From: Sphingomonas sp. URHD0057
GTDB lineage: Bacteria; Pseudomonadota; Alphaproteobacteria; Sphingomonadales; Sphingomonadaceae
DNA length: 64,000 nt
Assembly (NCBI RefSeq): GCF_000620665.1
Contig: NZ_KK211162.1
Location: 827,764-891,763 of the forward strand
Reading direction: 5' to 3'
The first letter of the stretch is position 1; every line of letters begins with the position of its first letter. The notes beneath the pieces are model-generated. The model searched no databases. It saw only the letters and a list, made by a program, of their open reading frames with translations, and had not been told where the DNA came from. The translations under genes were made by a program, and so were the position numbers. This document shows, in pieces, positions 36,617 through 46,701 of this stretch.

Positions 36617-39268
36617 TCAATTCTTCGTCAAAAACGTTTTTGAATCGCTGATCCAGGCCTGCCGGCTAAGCGGCGCCAGACCGGCCTTTTGTCGCTGGAC
36701 GTTGATTGCGAGTCGAATGCGATCTTCGATCTCGTCAAAGCGCGGGTCGCTCGCCAGCCATCCAAAGGTCGGGTCGTAACGAAGCGCCATCATTGGGATT
36801 GGAGCAAGCCGGAACGGCTTCACCCGCGACCAATGATCGAGCGCTCCAATGGCGGCCTCGCGATTGCCAGTGAGAGCGGCGACGACACCAACGGAGAAGC
36901 GCTTCTCGTCTCCCAGCAAACCGCCATTTGGAAGGCGATCCTTGGCTTGGCGATACTGCGTGAGGAGACGATCCGCCTCCGCTTGCCGACCAGTCCTGCG
37001 CAACGCAATGATGGTTTCCGGCTGCGCGAGGCGATCGAGCGATATCCGGTCCTCCGCGACAAGCGGTCGTGCCGCGTCGTAAAGCTGAACAAGCGTATCG
37101 CCATGCCCCGAAGCAATGAGTAGCGCTGCGCTGTTCCAATAACCGGACTGGTCCCAATAATGGGGGCCTACAGCCTGCGCCGCAGTCGCAAGCGCGGGCC
37201 AATTGCCGGTCAGCGCGGCGTTGCCAAGGCGATCATAGCCGACCAGCTTTGCAGCAGCCTGATTATTGCCGAGCAAAGAAAGCGTCGATGCCAGGTTCAA
37301 CCGCATCTGCCGCTCTTCAGGATAAGAGCGCTGAAGCGCGGAGGTTGTCTTTAGCTGCCCCGCCAGGTCATCATCGAATTTCTGCATCGACTGAAGGAGC
37401 AGCAACTTGGCGCGCTGGTCGGTGCTGAGATCGAAAAAGCGCTGGACGTATTGCTTCGCCTCCGCATTTCGACCGACCAGATAGAGCGCCCCGATCAGAT
37501 GGTCGTAATTGAGTCCCCATAAAGGGTCGATTTCGACGGCGCGTTTGAACTCGGCAATCGCGTCATCGTAGCGGTTGAGCGCTTCAAGCGTTTGCGCGTG
37601 CCAGCGATGGAATTCGGGGCGCTGAGGGCTGAGTTGGACCGCCTTGCGCATGTAAGGCTCGGCGCTGGCGTCGAGGCTCAGCGAAAGGAACCCGATCGCG
37701 GCGTAGCCGTCCCCGAGGTTCGGATCGAGCGCGACCGCCTTACGGGCGAACGGCTCCGCATCGGCTTGAGCCTGGGAGAAGGGGATCGACCCGTAGGAGG
37801 TCGGGTGATCCGATTCGAGCATGATCAACTGCGCGAGCTCGGCATAAGCCGGGGCGTAACGTGGATCGCGGGCAATCGCTTCGCGCAGCAACCGGTCGGC
37901 CTCCCGCAGCGTCGGCTCGCGCCGCTCGCGGACGAGCTGACGTGCCGCGAGATAGCGATCGTAGACGTCTGGCGTCGTTTCCTGGGGCCGAACGCCGGCG
38001 AAGGATTGCGCGACCCGCGCGGCGACCGCGCCCGCAATATCGCCCTGGACGGCGAAAATGTCGCCCGCCTTGCGCTCATAACGCTCGGACCAGACCTGCG
38101 CCCCGTCGGAAACGCGGGTCAGGCGAGCGATGACAAGAATGCGATCCTGGGCGGTGCGGACGCTGCCGTCGAGGAGATAGGTTACCCCGAGCTTGCGCGC
38201 GGTTTCCAGCGATTGCGCTGGATCGCCAAGCTGCGCCGCCGATGCGCGCCCGAGCACTCGCAGCTGCCGTTGCCGGCCAAGCAGATTGAGGATTTCGTCG
38301 GAAACGCCCGACGCAAAATAGTCTTCGTTCTGTTTCCCGAGGTCGTCGAACGGAAGCACCGCGACGGTCGGGGCCGCCGCGACCGTCGCCGGCCTCATGA
38401 AGCTGAAGGCCAAGGCAGCAGCGACAAGCACAGCAATCGCGACCAGCGCAGGTATGACCCAACGACGTTTGCGCGACTCGGCTGAGCGAGGCGCCACACC
38501 GACGAGCGGAACCGAAGGCGCGGCCTTGGCCTGGTCGAGCAGCGCCTCGGTCTCGGCGGCGGGCCGGATGCCAAGCTCCTGGTCGAGACGACCCGAAAGT
38601 CGGCTGTGCCGGCGCATCGCCGCGGCGCGATCGCCGCCGGCGATGTCCGCGACAATCCCAAGCTGCGCGACACGCTCGTCGAGGGGGTCGAGCCGCTCGA
38701 GCTGGTTGGCGATCCGCCTTGCCGCCGTCACGTCACCGCAGCGCAGGCTTTGCTCGGCAACGCCGAGAGCGCCGCTGACTACGGACGAAGAAATGCGCGA
38801 ACGTTCGTCACGTAACCAGTCGTCGAGCTCGGGCGTGATATCGTCGAGCCCGCCGAGCAATGGTGATTCAACATCATCGAGCGCATCGGCGAGCTCCGCC
38901 GCGTCTCGTTCGTCGATGAGGCGATGAACGGCGCCGATGTCGGTCGAAAGTTTCTTCGCCCCTGGCCCAACGGCCTGCCGATCAGCGACAATGTAGCCAT
39001 TCGAGGATAACGACCGAAGCTCGTAGAGCGCTTGGCGGAGGCTCGCCTTTGCCTGCTCGTCGCCCCGATCGCCCCACAACAAGTCGCTGACGCGTGCTCG
39101 CGACAGGGGTGTCTTCGAAAGGGCGATCAAGGCCACAAGTGCCCGAGTCTTCCGCGATTTGGGGGTGACGTCGTCGCCCGCCGAGCTCACCAGGCGCACC
39201 GGCCCAAGCAGTCCGAGCGTGAGCTCGCTGGTCCAAAGGAGATCGGCCTTGGGCCCCTGGTCGGCCAT
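36617..39268 (-). CDS. Membrane-anchored SARP/BTAD-type regulator with FlgO-like and TPR domains
   Basis: An 883-residue protein. Residues ~15-90 form a winged-helix DNA-binding domain (LTLGLLGPVRLVSS ... SRARVSDLLWGDRGDEQAKASLRQALYELRS), ~95-245 a BTAD helical domain, ~270-290 one membrane helix, ~300-430 a FlgO/TolB-N-like domain (VAVLPFDDLGKQNEDYFASGVSDEILN), and ~440-840 TPR repeats. The topology is CadC-like: DNA binding in the cytosol, sensing outside. Position 73 bp upstream of two TonB receptors suggests it controls them. Signal unknown. Confidence 0.8.
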   Translation of the reverse strand: MADQGPKADLLWTSELTLGLLGPVRLVSSAGDDVTPKSRKTRALVALIALSKTPLSRARVSDLLWGDRGDEQAKASLRQALYELRSLSSNGYIVADRQAVGPGAKKLSTDIGAVHRLIDERDAAELADALDDVESPLLGGLDDITPELDDWLRDERSRISSSVVSGALGVAEQSLRCGDVTAARRIANQLERLDPLDERVAQLGIVADIAGGDRAAAMRRHSRLSGRLDQELGIRPAAETEALLDQAKAAPSVPLVGVAPRSAESRKRRWVIPALVAIAVLVAAALAFSFMRPATVAAAPTVAVLPFDDLGKQNEDYFASGVSDEILNLLGRQRQLRVLGRASAAQLGDPAQSLETARKLGVTYLLDGSVRTAQDRILVIARLTRVSDGAQVWSERYERKAGDIFAVQGDIAGAVAARVAQSFAGVRPQETTPDVYDRYLAARQLVRERREPTLREADRLLREAIARDPRYAPAYAELAQLIMLESDHPTSYGSIPFSQAQADAEPFARKAVALDPNLGDGYAAIGFLSLSLDASAEPYMRKAVQLSPQRPEFHRWHAQTLEALNRYDDAIAEFKRAVEIDPLWGLNYDHLIGALYLVGRNAEAKQYVQRFFDLSTDQRAKLLLLQSMQKFDDDLAGQLKTTSALQRSYPEERQMRLNLASTLSLLGNNQAAAKLVGYDRLGNAALTGNWPALATAAQAVGPHYWDQSGYWNSAALLIASGHGDTLVQLYDAARPLVAEDRISLDRLAQPETIIALRRTGRQAEADRLLTQYRQAKDRLPNGGLLGDEKRFSVGVVAALTGNREAAIGALDHWSRVKPFRLAPIPMMALRYDPTFGWLASDPRFDEIEDRIRLAINVQRQKAGLAPLSRQAWISDSKTFLTKN

Positions 39269-39325: not shown

Positions 39326-40279
39326 CTACCTCGGGTTCACCTTCATTTGCACGAGGTCGTTGACCGGCGGAAGGGGATTGCGCTGGCCCGCGGCCCAGCG
39401 CGCGAAATCGGGGCTGATGTCGAGGGCCTTGAGCTGCACGAGGTCGCTGACGCGCAGGTGAGCGTAGCCAGCGCGCTGCATGCCCGCGACATAGTCCGGC
39501 GTGACATCGAGCGCCTTGAGCTGGACAAGATCTCCAGCGGGGAGGCGGCCGTAGCCGAGGCGGTCGAGCGCGGCGACGTAATCCGCGGTGATATCCAACG
39601 CCTTGAGCTGGACGAGGTCGTCGGCCGGAATGTTGGCATAGCCGAGCCGGGCGAAGCCGCCGATATATTCGGGCGTGATGTCCATCGCGCGAAATTCGAC
39701 CAAATTATGGATTGCCGGTGGGCGGTAGCCCAGCCGGGCGAGGTCGGAGATGTAACGAGCATCCACTCCAACCGCCGTCATTTCGATCAAATTGTTGATC
39801 GTCGGCGTTGGGTACCGCGCGGCGGCGACCGCATCGATAAGCGAACGGCGTACGTCGAGCGCGACCAGGCTGAACGCCTCGTCTCGGCTTGGCTGACCAA
39901 TGCCCCGCGCCGCGAGCAGCTGCTCGAAGGTCGGATCCGACGTCATAGTGCAGGTGCCGCCGGCATAGGATTCACCGCCATGACCGATGCAATCGAGGCG
40001 TCCGGCTTCGCGGATCACGGCGAAGCGAAGCGGTCTGCTGCCGGAAGAGTGAAATGCGGCAAGGTCGAGTCCGGCGAGGTCGGCCGCGCGAAAGGAGCTC
40101 GACCAGTTGTTGTGGTTGCGGCCGTTTCGGTCGTCGCGAAAGTCGGCGCGGATGGTGCCTGCCTCGTGGGAAGGCTCGAGCGTGAAATGAAGCCAGTCGG
40201 CGGGCTGGGCGATGACTGCGGACGACACCGACAGGCCGGCGCAACACAAAGCGAATAGGAAGGCGAGAAAACGGTTCAT
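39326..40279 (-). CDS. Secreted protein with six 29-residue repeats, unknown function
   Basis: A 317-residue protein with a signal peptide (MNRFLAFLFALCCAGLSVSSA). After a ~130-residue N-terminal part, repeats of exactly 29 residues occur with Leu at 164, 193, 222, 251, 280 and 309; the core unit reads DLVQLKALDITxDYVxxL. The same repeat makes up the C-terminal domain of the M56 peptidase encoded just upstream (40383-42218). Two Cys (about 97 and 110) may form a disulfide. Probably exported with, and related to the sensing function of, the M56 protein (inference). Confidence 0.75.
   Translation of the reverse strand: MNRFLAFLFALCCAGLSVSSAVIAQPADWLHFTLEPSHEAGTIRADFRDDRNGRNHNNWSSSFRAADLAGLDLAAFHSSGSRPLRFAVIREAGRLDCIGHGGESYAGGTCTMTSDPTFEQLLAARGIGQPSRDEAFSLVALDVRRSLIDAVAAARYPTPTINNLIEMTAVGVDARYISDLARLGYRPPAIHNLVEFRAMDITPEYIGGFARLGYANIPADDLVQLKALDITADYVAALDRLGYGRLPAGDLVQLKALDVTPDYVAGMQRAGYAHLRVSDLVQLKALDISPDFARWAAGQRNPLPPVNDLVQMKVNPR
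39329..39796 (-). repeat. Protein-coding tandem repeats, 87 bp period
   Basis: The last ~155 codons of the secreted repeat protein consist of five full 29-residue units plus the start of a sixth, i.e. an 87 bp period on DNA. The two central units (DDLVQLKALDIT and GDLVQLKALDVT) are most alike, indicating relatively recent unit duplication. Confidence 0.75.
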
Positions 40280-40382
40280 CTCGGGTCTCCTTGTGCGATT
40301 GATTGGGGCAAAGTTCGCCCGTTCGCCCGGGCCAGGCGCTTTAGAAATCATTGTGGAAGTTCAGTCGGAAGTGGGAGCGGGG

Positions 40383-42218
40383 TTAACCGCCGCCGTCGTC
40401 ATCCGGATCGTTGACCGGATCCCAGTTGGCGGGTGGAACCCTGGGCGGCCTCGGCGGCGCGGGCGGGGCCGGCACCAGGTCGCGCGGCCCGACGCCCACC
40501 GCCCATAGCTCGACCAGCTTGTCGGGGTCGCGGATCACATAGCCAGAGCGGCGCAGCTGCTGGACATATTCCGGCTTCACGCCAACCGCGCGGAGCTGGA
40601 CGAAATCGTCCATGTCGCCAGCCACACCCGCCGATCGCAGCGCGCGAACATAATCGCCGGTCACTCCGACGGCGCGCGCTTCGGTCAGTTCGTCCTCATC
40701 GATCGCGGGAAAACCGGCGGAGGCCAGCGACCGCGCGAACTCCGGTGTTACGCCAACCGATTTCATTCCGGCGAAATCGGATGGAGTGAGGCGAGCGAGC
40801 TTAGGTGAAACGGCGCGCATGGCGCTGACATAATCGGGCGTCACGCCGACGGCCTTCATCTCGATGATCGCATCGATCTGGCGATCGTCGGGTTCGTAAG
40901 CGCGAACAATCGAGCGAGCATGATCGGTTGCGCGATCGGCCTGGGCGAGCGCGGTCTCACGTGCATTGTCGGCCGCTGCAAGCGCATTGGCGACGGCCGC
41001 CGCCCGCGCTTCTTGTGCAGTCATCTTCTGAGTCGGCACGGTCGCGGCAACAGCTGCTGCAACCGAAGTTGAAACACCGTTTGCAATGATGTGCGCGAGA
41101 TCGTTCGGAACCGGCGCGGGCGAATAATAGGGCGCCTGCGTGGTCTTCCCTTTCGACTTCGCGGAGTTGGAGCTGGCTGCTTCCTTGCTTCCGCCCGGAG
41201 CGACGGTCAGTGCAGCAAGCGGCGCCGCAATCAGCACTGCGCCGACAAGGACGCCAAGAGCGAAGGAGCGAGCCACGGGACCGCGCACGGACTTGCCGTC
41301 GAGGACGCGGGCGACACGGCGGGCGAGCGAGCCCTTAGACGGAGCGACGCCATGCGCGCCAAGCAGCAGGCCGGGGCACTCGTGGCGGGCAACGCCGACC
41401 AGCAGCTGGGCATAATCGGTATCGACGATATCGGCCGCAAGCACCGCGTCGTCGGCGGTTTCCTCGCGTAGCTGATGCGCTTCGCGGGCAAGCAGCCACA
41501 CCAGGGGATTGAACCAGAAGAGGGCAGTGGCGACGCGCGCCAGCAGCAGCTTGACCCAATCCATGCGGGCGACATGCGCCAGTTCATGGGCGATGATGGC
41601 TTCGGCCTCGCTCGAGGCTTCGACGGCGCGCGTGTTGAGCACGATCACTGGGCGCATCAGCCCCCAGCTGATCGGCGAGGACAACTCGTCGCTCGTCAGC
41701 AGCGCGGTCCCATGCTTGAACCCCATCCGGCGCTGGGCCCGGGCGAGGGCGCTCAGCCAATGCCCGTCGACGAGGACGTCGGCCCGGGCGCGAAGCGTGA
41801 TCAACCGGCCAAGCGCGAGCAAGGTGATGAACAGCAGGATGGCGGCCGGAACGGCATAGAGCGCCATCGTCGCCGACGTCGCGTTGACCCGAAGGCGCCG
41901 CGCTTGCTGCGGGAGGGTGGCGGTCTTCGCGTTGGCCGCGGGCAGTGACGCGCTCGTCGCATTCGTCGGGGCCGCGATGGTGGGGACTTCCGTCTGTGCC
42001 GTCGTCACCTGACCGAGCAGGGCAGGCGCCTCAACCGTCCAGCTCGTCCAGCTCGGCAGCACCAGTGGCGCGAAGGCGAGGGTCACCAGTGCGAGCAGCC
42101 CCATGTGCGCGACCCATGAGCGTTCAGCCGCGGAGCGCCGTTTCATGAGCTCGAGCAGCCCGAGCGAAACGCCGGCGATGAGCAGCGACTTGAGAGCAAT
42201 GGCGACCAGGACATGCAT
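40383..42218 (-). CDS. M56 (BlaR1-like) membrane metallopeptidase with C-terminal repeats
   Basis: A 611-residue protein. N-terminal membrane helices (~5-25, 38-55, 118-140), M56 catalytic domain with HELAH at residues 211-215, another helix (~315-340), then a periplasmic part with an Ala-rich helical stretch and ~29-residue repeats (xAVGVTPDYVxxM) near residues 450-580, and a Pro-rich tail. In BlaR1/MecR1 the C-terminal sensor is a penicillin-binding domain; here it is replaced by repeats. The start overlaps the BlaI-type gene (TAATG), so the protease presumably inactivates that repressor. Confidence 0.88.
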   Translation of the reverse strand: MHVLVAIALKSLLIAGVSLGLLELMKRRSAAERSWVAHMGLLALVTLAFAPLVLPSWTSWTVEAPALLGQVTTAQTEVPTIAAPTNATSASLPAANAKTATLPQQARRLRVNATSATMALYAVPAAILLFITLLALGRLITLRARADVLVDGHWLSALARAQRRMGFKHGTALLTSDELSSPISWGLMRPVIVLNTRAVEASSEAEAIIAHELAHVARMDWVKLLLARVATALFWFNPLVWLLAREAHQLREETADDAVLAADIVDTDYAQLLVGVARHECPGLLLGAHGVAPSKGSLARRVARVLDGKSVRGPVARSFALGVLVGAVLIAAPLAALTVAPGGSKEAASSNSAKSKGKTTQAPYYSPAPVPNDLAHIIANGVSTSVAAAVAATVPTQKMTAQEARAAAVANALAAADNARETALAQADRATDHARSIVRAYEPDDRQIDAIIEMKAVGVTPDYVSAMRAVSPKLARLTPSDFAGMKSVGVTPEFARSLASAGFPAIDEDELTEARAVGVTGDYVRALRSAGVAGDMDDFVQLRAVGVKPEYVQQLRRSGYVIRDPDKLVELWAVGVGPRDLVPAPPAPPRPPRVPPANWDPVNDPDDDGGG

Positions 42219-42667: not shown

Positions 42668-42699
42668 CGTCATTGCAAGCCAAAAATTCTTGGGCGAAA

Positions 42700-43413
42700 T
42701 CAATGGACCTGGGTGAGGACGATCGAGACATTATCGGGAGCGCCGCGCGCAAGCACCAGCTCCACCAGCTTGTCGGCCGCCTTATCCATCGGCGCGGAGG
42801 TCAGCTCCTCGAGGATTTCATAGTCGTCCACCAGGCGGGTCAAGCCGTCGCTGGCGAGGAGGAAGATGTCACCGGAATCGGCATCGCCGGTGGAGCTGTC
42901 CATCTGGAGATCCTCCGACACGCCCACCGCACGGGTGATGACGTTGGCGCTCTCGTGCTTCTCGGCGTCCTCGGCCTTTAGCATCCCGGCATCGACCAGG
43001 TCCTGCACCAGGCTATGGTCGCGCGACAGGCGGCGGATCTGCCCGCTCCGGATGCGATAGGCGCGGCTGTCGCCGGCCCAGAAGCAGCGGAAATGCCCGT
43101 CCGCGATCGCCAGCCCGACGACGGTCGTGCCGATCGTTCGGGAGTGGTCGCCGGATCGGGCAAGTTCGATCAGCTCGCGATTGACGACGTACAGCGCGTC
43201 GATCGCCGCCTCGACCAATTCGTCCAGGCCATAGACGATCGGGAGCGAGCGAAGCGCTTCCACGACTTTGGCGCTGGCCACGTCGCCCGCTTCATGGCCG
43301 CCCATGCCGTCGGCGACGGCCCATAGCCCGCGCTCGGTGCGCTCGAAGATGGAATCCTCGTTGACCTTCCGGCGTAAGCCCACGTGCGTACGGCTGATAC
43401 AATCAAAACTCAT
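42700..43413 (-). CDS. PP2C-family Ser/Thr protein phosphatase
   Basis: A 237-residue soluble phosphatase of the Stp1/PppA type. Metal-binding motifs are complete: KVNEDSIF, VADGMGGHEAGDVAS, LLASDGLTRLVDD and GAPDNVSIV. It probably reverses phosphorylation by the kinase encoded divergently (starts 100 bp apart). The start is the ATG at 43413 where the family begins; upstream extension lacks similarity. Confidence 0.93.
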   Translation of the reverse strand: MSFDCISRTHVGLRRKVNEDSIFERTERGLWAVADGMGGHEAGDVASAKVVEALRSLPIVYGLDELVEAAIDALYVVNRELIELARSGDHSRTIGTTVVGLAIADGHFRCFWAGDSRAYRIRSGQIRRLSRDHSLVQDLVDAGMLKAEDAEKHESANVITRAVGVSEDLQMDSSTGDADSGDIFLLASDGLTRLVDDYEILEELTSAPMDKAADKLVELVLARGAPDNVSIVLTQVH

Positions 43414-43513
43414 CGCCTGCCCCCTGGCGTCCCCTATGGCGGGCAGACTAGCAATTGAGTAACGTGTATGCGATTTGATTTTGCAGACTTTGGTCGGGCG
43501 GGGGCAGCCGGCA

Positions 43514-45418
43514 ATGAATAAAGCGTACAGCAACAAGGCATTGCCTGCCGGAACGGTGTTGCGCGAATGGCGTCTCGAAGAGGTGCTCGGCGTCGGCGGG
43601 TTCGGCATCGTCTACAAAGCGCGCGGAATCTATTTCGACGAGCTCGTCGCGATCAAGGAATACTTCCCGAGCTCGATCAGCGACCGCGATTCCGAGGACA
43701 CCGTGGTCCCCATCGATTCCGATGCGGAGGAAGTCCACGCACTGGGCCTCAAGAAGTTCGTCGAGGAGGCCAAGCTCCTCTGGAACCTCTCGACGCCGAC
43801 CCGCCACCCCAACATCGTCAGCGTTCGCAGCCTCTTCGAGATCCACGGCACCGCCTACATGGTGATGGACTTCGAGGACGGCGTGTCGCTGTCGCGGATG
43901 CTGAAGCAGGGCAGGCGCTTCAACGAGCGCAGCCTGTGGAACATCCTTCGCCCGATCGCGCAGGGACTCGAAAGGGCGCATCGGGTCGGCGTGCTGCACC
44001 GCGACATCAAGCCGCCCAATATCCTCATCAATGAGGACAACCGGCCGGTCCTGATCGACTTCGGCTCGGCGCGCTTCACGACCGCCGAGGCGACCAGCAC
44101 CAACGTCACCTTCCACACGCCGCCGTATGCGGCGATCGAACAATATGTGAAGACCTACGAGCAGGGCCCGTGGACCGACATCTACGCGCTTGGCGTTGTG
44201 ATGTACGAATGCGTGACGGGCGAGAAGCCGGCGGAAGTGCTCGAGCGCCTGCACGCAGGCATGGGCAATCCGCTCGCCGGCGCCAAATGGCCCGGCTACG
44301 GCAAGAAGTTCCTGGCCGCGATCGACGCGGCGATGGTGGTCAAGCCCGAGGACCGGCCGCAATCGATTGGCGACTGGCTGGCGACTTTCGGCAAGAGCCT
44401 CGAAGAAGAGGCGGAAACCGAGGACGGCTCCGACGACGCCACGCGTTTTATTGCCCAGCAGGTCGAGACCGAGGAAATCATACCGGTCGGCACGACCGAC
44501 GCGTCCAACCTCGTGGAGACCGGCGTTCCGGCCGATCCCAAGCAGGTCAAGTTCAAGCGCATGGGGCGCGAGACCACGACGTCCAAGAAGATTCTTGTGC
44601 CGCCCGGGCCGGGCGAAGCCGAAGCCGAAGAGGTCGAGGGTGGTGACGGCGAGGAAGCGGTGGTCGCCGCGACTCCCAAGGCCGAGAAGCCGAGCAAGAA
44701 GGCGCCGGTTGCCAAGGAGTCGGGCAGCAGGCCGAAGCCAGCTCTATTGGTCGGGGCAGGTGCGATCGCGCTGCTCGGAGCGGTCGGCGCAGCCGCGCTC
44801 TTCATGCGCGGCGGCGAGCCCGCTTCGACAGAAACGGTGAACGCGACCTCTGACGTCGGCGGCAACGCCGACCTTGTGCTTGGCGGCGCAACCCCGGACG
44901 CCAATGCGGCGGTCGATGCGAACGCCGTCGGCACAGAAATGCAAAATGCAGCGACCGCGGGCCAAACCGTAACGGAGCCCGATGCAGCCGGCGCTGCGCT
45001 GCGCAAGGAGCAGGCGAAAGCCACGGCCGCCGAGGCTCGGCTGGCGGCAATTCAGAAGGCGCAGGCGAAAGCGGCCGCTCAAAAGCCAGGCACTCCCGCG
45101 GCTGCGACGAAAACCGCTGCGACGGCCCCGAGCGCCGCCGCATCGTCCGAATCCAGCGGCAGCACTAGCGGCGGCGTTTCGTCCTCGAAACTGTCGCAAT
45201 TCTACGGGGTCGTCGACAGCGCCCGCGGCATGGCGAGGCAGGTGATGCGGTCCGGCAATCCGTCCAACGTCCAGCTGGCGCGAAGCTATGACGCCAACCT
45301 CAAGACGCTGAGGGATTCGATCCGAGGGGTGAATTCGGACAAGGACGCCGATCGCCTGATCAAGCAGGCGACGCAGACCCGCGCCTATGTCCAGTTCCTG
45401 GTGAAGCAGTCGCAGTAG
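43514..45418 (+). CDS. Transmembrane Hanks-type Ser/Thr protein kinase
   Basis: A 634-residue kinase. Kinase domain ~20-290: GVGGFGIVYKA loop, Lys48, catalytic Asp164 (HRDIKPPN), DFG at 182-184. An acidic and Thr-rich juxtamembrane segment (~295-405) offers autophosphorylation sites. One membrane helix (~409-432) precedes a periplasmic Ala-rich coiled-coil and a C-terminal helical domain. I prefer the ATG at 43514 over an upstream TTG. It sits between a PP2C phosphatase and a TIR-FHA gene, suggesting a phosphothreonine signalling unit. No type VI secretion genes are present nearby. Confidence 0.92.
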   Translation: MNKAYSNKALPAGTVLREWRLEEVLGVGGFGIVYKARGIYFDELVAIKEYFPSSISDRDSEDTVVPIDSDAEEVHALGLKKFVEEAKLLWNLSTPTRHPNIVSVRSLFEIHGTAYMVMDFEDGVSLSRMLKQGRRFNERSLWNILRPIAQGLERAHRVGVLHRDIKPPNILINEDNRPVLIDFGSARFTTAEATSTNVTFHTPPYAAIEQYVKTYEQGPWTDIYALGVVMYECVTGEKPAEVLERLHAGMGNPLAGAKWPGYGKKFLAAIDAAMVVKPEDRPQSIGDWLATFGKSLEEEAETEDGSDDATRFIAQQVETEEIIPVGTTDASNLVETGVPADPKQVKFKRMGRETTTSKKILVPPGPGEAEAEEVEGGDGEEAVVAATPKAEKPSKKAPVAKESGSRPKPALLVGAGAIALLGAVGAAALFMRGGEPASTETVNATSDVGGNADLVLGGATPDANAAVDANAVGTEMQNAATAGQTVTEPDAAGAALRKEQAKATAAEARLAAIQKAQAKAAAQKPGTPAAATKTAATAPSAAASSESSGSTSGGVSSSKLSQFYGVVDSARGMARQVMRSGNPSNVQLARSYDANLKTLRDSIRGVNSDKDADRLIKQATQTRAYVQFLVKQSQ

Positions 45419-45449
45419 CCGCGTCTGCGTTCAGTATCCCCGTTGGCGC

Positions 45450-46427
45450 TCAGGGCGTCGCTGCGAGGCGCAACCCCCTGCGATTGCCGCCGCCGGGATC
45501 GCTCCAGGCGAGCGCCTCCTGGCGGCTGCGGATCTCATGGGAGAGAGATACCTGACCGACTCTCAACACGGAGCCGATCGGGAGGACGGCAGTGCGGCCG
45601 ATCCGCTGACCGTCAATGTAGGTGCCATTGGTCGAATTGAGGTCCGAGACGATGACCTCGTCGTTTGCCAGGCCCACCCTGCAGTGCTCGCGTGATACGC
45701 TCGCGTGCGCAATGATCGCGTCGGCCGGTGCGGCACGCCCAATCTTGAGGCCCGCAGGTGCGACGACGAAGCATTGCTCAGCTTCCTCATCAATCACGCA
45801 CAGGCAGTGAAATTCGTCGCTCTGCTGCTCGGGCAGCGAAGGTTGAGGTTCGGGAACGTCGATCTCCGGCTCGGGCGGCCCTCCCGTCTTGCGGCTGCTC
45901 GAAGCGAAAATGACATCGTCGTTGCCGGGCCGCAGCCGGTCCCGGGTGGGTGGTGTGGCCATGCGCGACCCGCGCGCGGGTGCGACCGGCTTGAGCGGAG
46001 GCGGCTCGACCAGTCCATCCGCGGCGCTGTTCCTCTGAACCATGCGCTGGACGTCGGTGACGAACGCCCGCCACGCCGAATCCGATGCGTCGCCGGACCA
46101 GCCGGAAAGGTCGGCGGTATGGGTCAGCTCGAAGGCGATCGGACGGTCGCATTCTTCGATGATCGCCGGCACCAGCTTGTTGCGGCGGTCGGCGAGGGTC
46201 GCTTCGGCGCGAACCCAGCGCGAGGTGACCGACCGCGGCGACCACAGGACGACCACCGCCTTCGCTTCTTTCAGGCGCTGCTCGATGACCTCATCGAAGG
46301 TCTGGCCCGACTGAAGCGCGGCGTCCCACCAGACGTCGAGGCCCTCCGCACCGAACGACTCGGCGATATGCCGGGCCGCCGCGCGATCCTCGCGACTGTA
46401 GGACAGGAAAATGTCGATTCCGGACAA
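45450..46427 (-). CDS. TIR domain-FHA domain fusion protein
   Basis: A 325-residue soluble protein. The N-terminal TIR domain (~1-135) begins DIFLSYSREDRAAARHIAESF and includes SRWVRAEA, where Glu75 aligns by eye with the catalytic Glu of NAD+-cleaving TIRs. A Pro/Arg-rich linker (~140-205) follows, then a FHA domain (~215-293) with GR, SREH and STNGTYIDG motifs that bind phosphothreonine. A short basic tail ends the protein. The kinase encoded convergently is the obvious source of phosphothreonine. NADase activity is not proven. Confidence 0.88.
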   Translation of the reverse strand: MSGIDIFLSYSREDRAAARHIAESFGAEGLDVWWDAALQSGQTFDEVIEQRLKEAKAVVVLWSPRSVTSRWVRAEATLADRRNKLVPAIIEECDRPIAFELTHTADLSGWSGDASDSAWRAFVTDVQRMVQRNSAADGLVEPPPLKPVAPARGSRMATPPTRDRLRPGNDDVIFASSSRKTGGPPEPEIDVPEPQPSLPEQQSDEFHCLCVIDEEAEQCFVVAPAGLKIGRAAPADAIIAHASVSREHCRVGLANDEVIVSDLNSTNGTYIDGQRIGRTAVLPIGSVLRVGQVSLSHEIRSRQEALAWSDPGGGNRRGLRLAATP

Positions 46428-46611
46428 AAGTCCCCCTTAAGCGGCCTCAGCAATCATTCGCCCATGATCGGCCGACGACCTGGCCGGCGACCGGATTCAC
46501 GGCCCGGCACGACTCGCACCGATCCAAACGTAAGAATCGGTTAATTATGTTTCGATGTCGAGGGCCAAGTGTTCACCGTCCCGTGATGGGATAGCTTTGT
46601 AATCAGATATT

Positions 46612-46701
<90 letters not shown>

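Follow-up and report, generated by a model that had tools for sequence, protein, structure and literature searches.

Thoeris and the threonine phosphorylation pathway of type VI secretion are among the described systems nearest to the locus analysed here. Thoeris combines a TIR protein, ThsB, with ThsA, which is either a SIR2-SLOG or a TM-macro protein. The type VI pathway, according to the abstract of PMC3953482, involves a membrane kinase (PpkA), a PP2C phosphatase (PppA) and an FHA protein (Fha), and the same three activities are encoded as a set in the window, i.e. the whole 64,000-nucleotide stretch of Sphingomonas sp. URHD0057 DNA that was studied, with the difference that here the FHA protein carries a TIR domain. 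An FHA domain joined to a messenger-making enzyme and preceded by a Thr motif is described for DgcB in the excerpts of PMC6733907, in which the FHA ligand of DgcB, GarA and OdhI is a Thr in the tail ahead of the FHA domain. The cassette has a TIR domain where DgcB has GGDEF and, unlike DgcB, GarA and OdhI, it encodes a dedicated kinase and phosphatase alongside. Among the conflict systems of the Aravind group, TIR genes lie beside 2TM SLATT genes (excerpts of PMC9503650) and kinase-PP2C pairs adjoin the GAP1-N2 systems (excerpts of PMC7159879). The excerpted parts of these two accounts do not describe a TIR-FHA protein and, in contrast to the TIR-SLATT, VMAP and GAP1-N2 systems, no vWA, MoxR or GAP1-N2 protein was recognised among the named neighbours of the cassette. 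No published description of a TIR-FHA protein or of a kinase/PP2C/TIR-FHA trio was found in the open-licence PMC literature. The cassette resembles a Thoeris-type TIR system with a phospho-input like that of type VI secretion, yet it belongs to neither, because no ThsA of a known kind is present and 13 of the 14 genomes with TIR-FHA have no type VI secretion system.

The cassette is made up of a PP2C-family Ser/Thr phosphatase of 237 aa (42700..43413, minus strand), a divergent intergenic region of 100 bp (43414..43513), a Hanks-type Ser/Thr kinase of 634 aa (43514..45418, plus strand) and a TIR-FHA fusion of 325 aa (45450..46427, minus strand), the last two genes converging across 31 bp (45419-45449). 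The sequence and the Pfam matches bear out the three open reading frames in the order and spacing claimed by the sequence-only reading, which was also right that secretion genes are absent beside the trio. The 100-bp gap presumes ATG starts at 43413 for PP2C and 43514 for the kinase; these agree with the aligned relatives, and the longest-ORF starts (43608 and 43475) would make the two genes overlap. The TTG start codon of the TIR-FHA gene is preceded by AAGGGGGA. Seven PP2C/kinase intergenic stretches were compared by eye for a shared promoter motif, and similarity was seen only among near relatives. The interval treated in the earlier reading ends before a tRNA-Ser (UGA) gene (46612..46701, minus strand, ARAGORN), whose 3' end lies towards the cassette and which forms one of its edges.

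In the fusion protein, the TIR domain (Pfam TIR_2, residues 6-113, 46089..46412, minus strand, E 3.2e-23) is followed by the FHA domain (Pfam FHA, residues 228-291, 45555..45746, minus strand, E 6e-17). Fold comparison of the predicted model (md5931bd63942) matched residues 3-132 with the TIR domains of SPARTA and SARM1, and the nearest solved sequences include the NADase AbTIR. Glu75 (codon 46203..46205, minus strand) sits within SRWVRAE; its aligned counterpart in solved TIRs, among them 7uxr and the plant protein 5teb, is a Glu which we take to be the catalytic residue there. Hence both marks of a NADase TIR, a Glu in the SxWxxxE region and the TIR fold, are found. This putative catalytic Glu is invariant in all 14 TIR-FHA genomes (SRWVRSE in one), and the FHA core of GR, SRxH and STNGT is likewise present in 14/14 (LGR replacing IGR in one), so the GR/SxxH/NG core of phosphothreonine-binding FHA domains is intact throughout. 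The two domains and their intact motifs are thus as the sequence-only reading had claimed. The TIR domain is probably enzymatic; NADase activity of the fusion and phosphothreonine binding by its FHA domain are predicted from these motifs.

In the kinase (Pfam Pkinase, E 3.6e-37) the catalytic domain is followed by an acidic linker, a single hydrophobic segment recognised by eye (44741..44806, plus strand), which is presumably membrane-spanning, and a C-terminal region recognisable in most relatives. The VAIK, HRDIK and DFG motifs of active Hanks kinases are intact in the window and in all 14 TIR-FHA genomes. The phosphatase (Pfam PP2C, E 3.1e-12; also aligned with relatives) scores 207 bits against the NCBIfam Stp1/IreP model, below its cut-off of 230, and in 19 PP2C genes ADGMGG was found in 19, SDG[LV]T in 17 (two have TDG) and PDN in 18. 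A linker motif, [DE]xT[RKQ][FILV], is common to 14/14 kinases (shuffled mean 0.45, maximum 4), and T[QA][FL] occurs in the TIR-FHA linker in 11/14 (shuffled mean 0.94, maximum 5); both patterns were picked after the alignments had been viewed, so the shuffle controls flatter them. The TIR-FHA motif is missing in Sphingomonas segetis, in G274 and in the window protein, which has no TQF in its linker. Since the ligand in DgcB, GarA and OdhI is a Thr in the tail, the Thr motifs in the linkers of the kinase and the FHA protein are candidate docking sites. In the window kinase, Thr310 (codon 44441..44443, plus strand) in DATRF may accordingly be considered a candidate site for autophosphorylation and FHA docking.

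Absence of the three genes together from relatives had been set beforehand as the refuting test, and the co-occurrence was found to hold. Some match to the TIR-FHA protein is present in 89 of 298 family genomes; among the matches listed these are mostly to the TIR alone, within other fusions, and the FHA profile was negative on 20 other TIR frames (228-482 aa) among them (0/20), all three control loci being FHA-positive. TIR and FHA in a single frame occur in 10/298 (G000, G077, G145, G238, G274, G058, G138, G221, G232 and G234), and the kinase (E <= 1e-80) in 12/298, namely these 10 together with G178 and G270 (Fisher p = 5e-17 for co-occurrence). G178 has FHA-SpoIIE instead of TIR-FHA. The G270 kinase is degenerate at three catalytic motifs (VAIQ, HRDIT, GFAAG), and PP2C and TIR-FHA were not found within the 18 kb read around it. 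A wider pattern-based contig scan, in which the best 80 of 536 relatives were kept, added S. segetis, Croceicoccus bisphenolivorans, an Erythrobacteraceae isolate and an Altererythrobacter MAG, which brings the total to at least 14 genomes, each of which has the kinase as well as a nearby PP2C. In these counts five scan rows are merged with genomes already named (L059=G221, L061=G145, L063=G232, L065=G138, L093=G178) and a contig-truncated copy, L066, is excluded from every count of 14. The TIR-FHA cluster itself contains PP2C in 14/14 and the kinase in 12/14. The Erythrobacteraceae isolate has its kinase close to one contig's end and its PP2C close to the beginning of a different contig; their separation may thus be an assembly break. 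C. bisphenolivorans has its kinase on a separate contig, adjoining a second PP2C; this kinase clusters with that of C. gelatinilyticus, which is of the FHA-SpoIIE type (100/98). At E <= 1e-55 the class-wide search of 385 genomes found no genome other than that of the window; 12 plasmid records match, none covering 80% of the query, and phages gave no match.

Five genomes of one genus, the window's included (G000, G077, G145, G238 and G274), have exactly one Pfam Pkinase and one FHA match, both in the trio; a sixth genome of the genus, G197, lacks the trio and also both matches. If the FHA domain reads a phosphothreonine made by a Hanks kinase, the pair in these five genomes must be that of the trio. 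Together with the co-occurrence, this exclusivity backs the earlier proposal that kinase, phosphatase and FHA protein form one pathway, and a functional link between kinase and FHA is highly probable. S. segetis has two Pkinase and two FHA matches, the second FHA being on a contig that bears VipB.

Like Thoeris, the cassette has a TIR protein and, in 8 of the 14 genomes, a SLOG-type membrane protein nearby; a TPR-S/SLOG-like/cyclase protein is found in a further 3/14. In contrast to Thoeris, its TIR forms one protein with FHA and is linked to a kinase and a phosphatase, and the SLOG partner of the relatives bears membrane helices, not SIR2. The SLOG fold of the partner proteins was supported, and DUF4231 was above cut-off in 1/4 of those scanned; the DUF4231 region after SLOG may be a 2TM SLATT domain. 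No ThsA, whether SIR2-SLOG or TM-macro, lies among the window neighbours, the relatives having the SLOG-membrane or TPR-S/cyclase proteins instead, and neither of these was found near the window locus. The nucleotide-signal output proposed earlier therefore gains from the SLOG-type neighbours of the relatives but not from the window, which has no adjacent SLOG partner. Of the partner proteins, three with SLOG and membrane helices and one with TPR-S and cyclase domains had no match in PADLOC. Assignment to a known defence system was rejected, as PADLOC yields partial matches only, to the TIR and the kinase (SAVED-TIR, ThsB, PD-T4-6, mad6). A TIR of the ThsB kind was also rejected: Pfam ThsB_TIR scores 25.5 bits (cut-off 21.2) against 82.9 for TIR_2, the PADLOC ThsB match is partial (best E 4.6e-7), and no NCBIfam Thoeris model reaches its cut-off, the type III model ThcB4 scoring 37.5 bits against 220.

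We propose, with about even confidence, a reading of the cassette as a Thoeris-like TIR signalling switch gated by phosphothreonine. On a putative trigger, the membrane kinase, countered by PP2C, would phosphorylate the Thr within the [DE]xT[RKQ][FILV] stretch of its linker and also, where the TIR-FHA linker has T[QA][FL] (11/14 relatives), the Thr of this second motif. The FHA domain would dock on the resulting phosphothreonine, by which the TIR domains may be clustered or released, and these would then act on NAD+ to give ADP-ribose-type products. A SLOG-type protein of the same cluster (11/14 genomes) would read the product, as SLOG does in Thoeris, and where such a neighbour is present this is somewhat favoured. 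In the window genome the reader may be the unlinked SLOG membrane protein, or the output may be the loss of NAD+ itself. A membrane outcome, as with the TM-macro ThsA of Thoeris, is plausible for the cassette as well; growth arrest or death would be the expected result, and PP2C would reset the switch. More tentatively, the cassette could be an undescribed immune or cell-death module in which the transmembrane kinase and the phosphatase gate a TIR NADase through FHA and the ADP-ribose-type messenger opens a SLOG membrane effector or activates a SLOG-linked cyclase. A role in phage defence is equally a tentative suggestion, at somewhat less than even chance.

The same biochemistry may instead serve an envelope-stress or growth-control circuit, the C-terminal region of the kinase sensing the membrane or wall and TIR-FHA tuning NAD+ or a nucleotide signal. 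The cassette neighbours in the window fit this, being BlaI/M56, a lytic transglycosylase (SLT_2) and a gene which we take to be D-Ala-D-Ala carboxypeptidase-like, with no defence genes among them; PADLOC matched one of ten neighbours from six related loci, a helicase-type protein. A further argument comes from the FHA-SpoIIE loci (L047, L088, L091 and L094), where a kinase with a domain 80-84% identical and a divergent PP2C accompany an FHA protein 48-55% identical in its FHA to TIR-FHA, with SpoIIE phosphatase where the cassette has TIR. TQ[IF] stands ahead of FHA in 4/4 of these proteins, and a linker motif of the [DE]xT[RKQ][FILV] type is lacking in 2/4 of their kinases (N. flavum and a Novosphingobium MAG). 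No SLOG partner was seen at the four loci, and their platform ends with a STAS/HATPase pair, which is suggestive of general regulation. Against the envelope circuit stand the patchy distribution (10/298), the changes of place among genomes of the genus and the SLOG-membrane partners, all commoner in conflict systems, and we consider it possible but rather doubtful.

It is unlikely that TIR-FHA is a non-enzymatic scaffold, in which phospho-docking drives TIR-TIR assembly and recruits another protein while NAD+ stays uncut. The residue and structure check of the TIR domain came out partly in favour of an enzyme, through the Glu of SRWV[RK-like]xE retained in 14/14, AbTIR among the nearest solved sequences and the SPARTA/SARM1-like fold; the adaptor TIRs MAL and MyD88, however, align about as well as the enzymatic ones, a point in favour of the scaffold. 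A type VI phosphorylation pathway, surviving as a remnant or in variant form, would account for the identical trio of activities and for a weak match of the NCBIfam TagH model to the FHA domain (32 bits, cut-off 120). VipB, the type VI marker, was sought in the 14 TIR-FHA genomes, G178 and G197 and found in 1/16, S. segetis, where its contig bears a separate FHA gene; with VipB missing from 13/14 and 15/16 genomes, type VI membership was rejected and such a remnant is very improbable. That the genes are chance neighbours of unrelated function, as convergent and divergent genes outside a single operon might be, is contradicted by their co-occurrence and by their clustering at differing chromosomal places, and is hardly credible.

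Thoeris TIR proteins are themselves described as infection detectors in the excerpts of PMC11204291; if the proposed switch is correct, control of a TIR by a membrane kinase and phosphatase would bring in reversible phosphorylation as a further input. It would place an immune-type or cell-death signal, made by a TIR enzyme akin to those of bacterial and plant immunity, under a phosphorylation-controlled switch, and would amount to a bacterial receptor-kinase-to-TIR pathway. Signalling logic of this kind in animals and plants offers a parallel. The switch is unusually testable, as writer (kinase) and reader (TIR-FHA) are nearly forced partners in the five genomes where each is the sole match of its kind.

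The trio occupies a 3.9-kb interval adjoining tRNA-Ser (42685..46611), which is empty in S. segetis; there BlaI follows directly after tRNA-Ser, and blastn homology to the window breaks at about 42684 and restarts at about 46612. In G197 and G238 the trio is likewise missing beside tRNA-Ser. Copies within the genus occupy differing gene contexts, and the cassette appears to relocate within sphingomonads. A single origin of the kinases at TIR-FHA loci was unsupported in the tree (4 changes). The FHA of TIR-FHA is related to that of the FHA-SpoIIE proteins, a group apart (97/96), and a kinase/PP2C/FHA platform may have exchanged SpoIIE for TIR, though the trees leave the direction undecided. In the TIR tree the 14 cluster (95/99) together with L066 and with L075, which has a long branch, so a single fusion at the origin of TIR-FHA is likely, though not proven. 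The TIR domain is nearest to the TIRs of TIR-TolB/TPR proteins.

FHA-SpoIIE proteins, accompanied by STAS and/or HATPase genes, are encoded next to a trio-type kinase and PP2C at L047:7920-12927 and also in L088, L091 and L094, all of them loci from related genomes, and this arrangement is an alternative output of the kinase/PP2C/FHA platform. A solitary relative of the trio kinase was located at L179:6145-8610; all three of its catalytic motifs are degenerate and no PP2C or FHA gene was found near it in 18 kb.

Croceibacterium salegens carries, in tandem, four TIR proteins with TolB/TPR-like C-termini (L048:6497-13137); their TIR domains have 55-62% identity to the window TIR. The whole genome harbouring the window gave seven TIR_2 matches, which is many for a genome as small as this one (2.79 Mb). 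It also contains, on contig 4 (L150:5304-9796), a second TIR/SLOG pair in which a TIR protein adjoins a SLOG membrane protein. The same pair is found in L151, L152 and L154, with two small proteins separating its members in L151 and L154; over these loci the TIR protein measures 690-726 aa. Elsewhere, the SLOG membrane protein gene is adjoined by that of a small Ion_trans_2 channel protein (L041:10405-10890, L043:5093-5548 and L153:8564-8944).

Outside the trio, the window encodes a protein with BTAD and TPR (36617-39268), and the central portion of this protein is similar to the C-terminal ends of TIR-TolB/TPR fusions. At 39326-42218, a BlaR1-like M56 peptidase has C-terminal repeats of the GVTPEYV kind in common with the protein encoded next to it, and a BlaI-type repressor adjoins the two.
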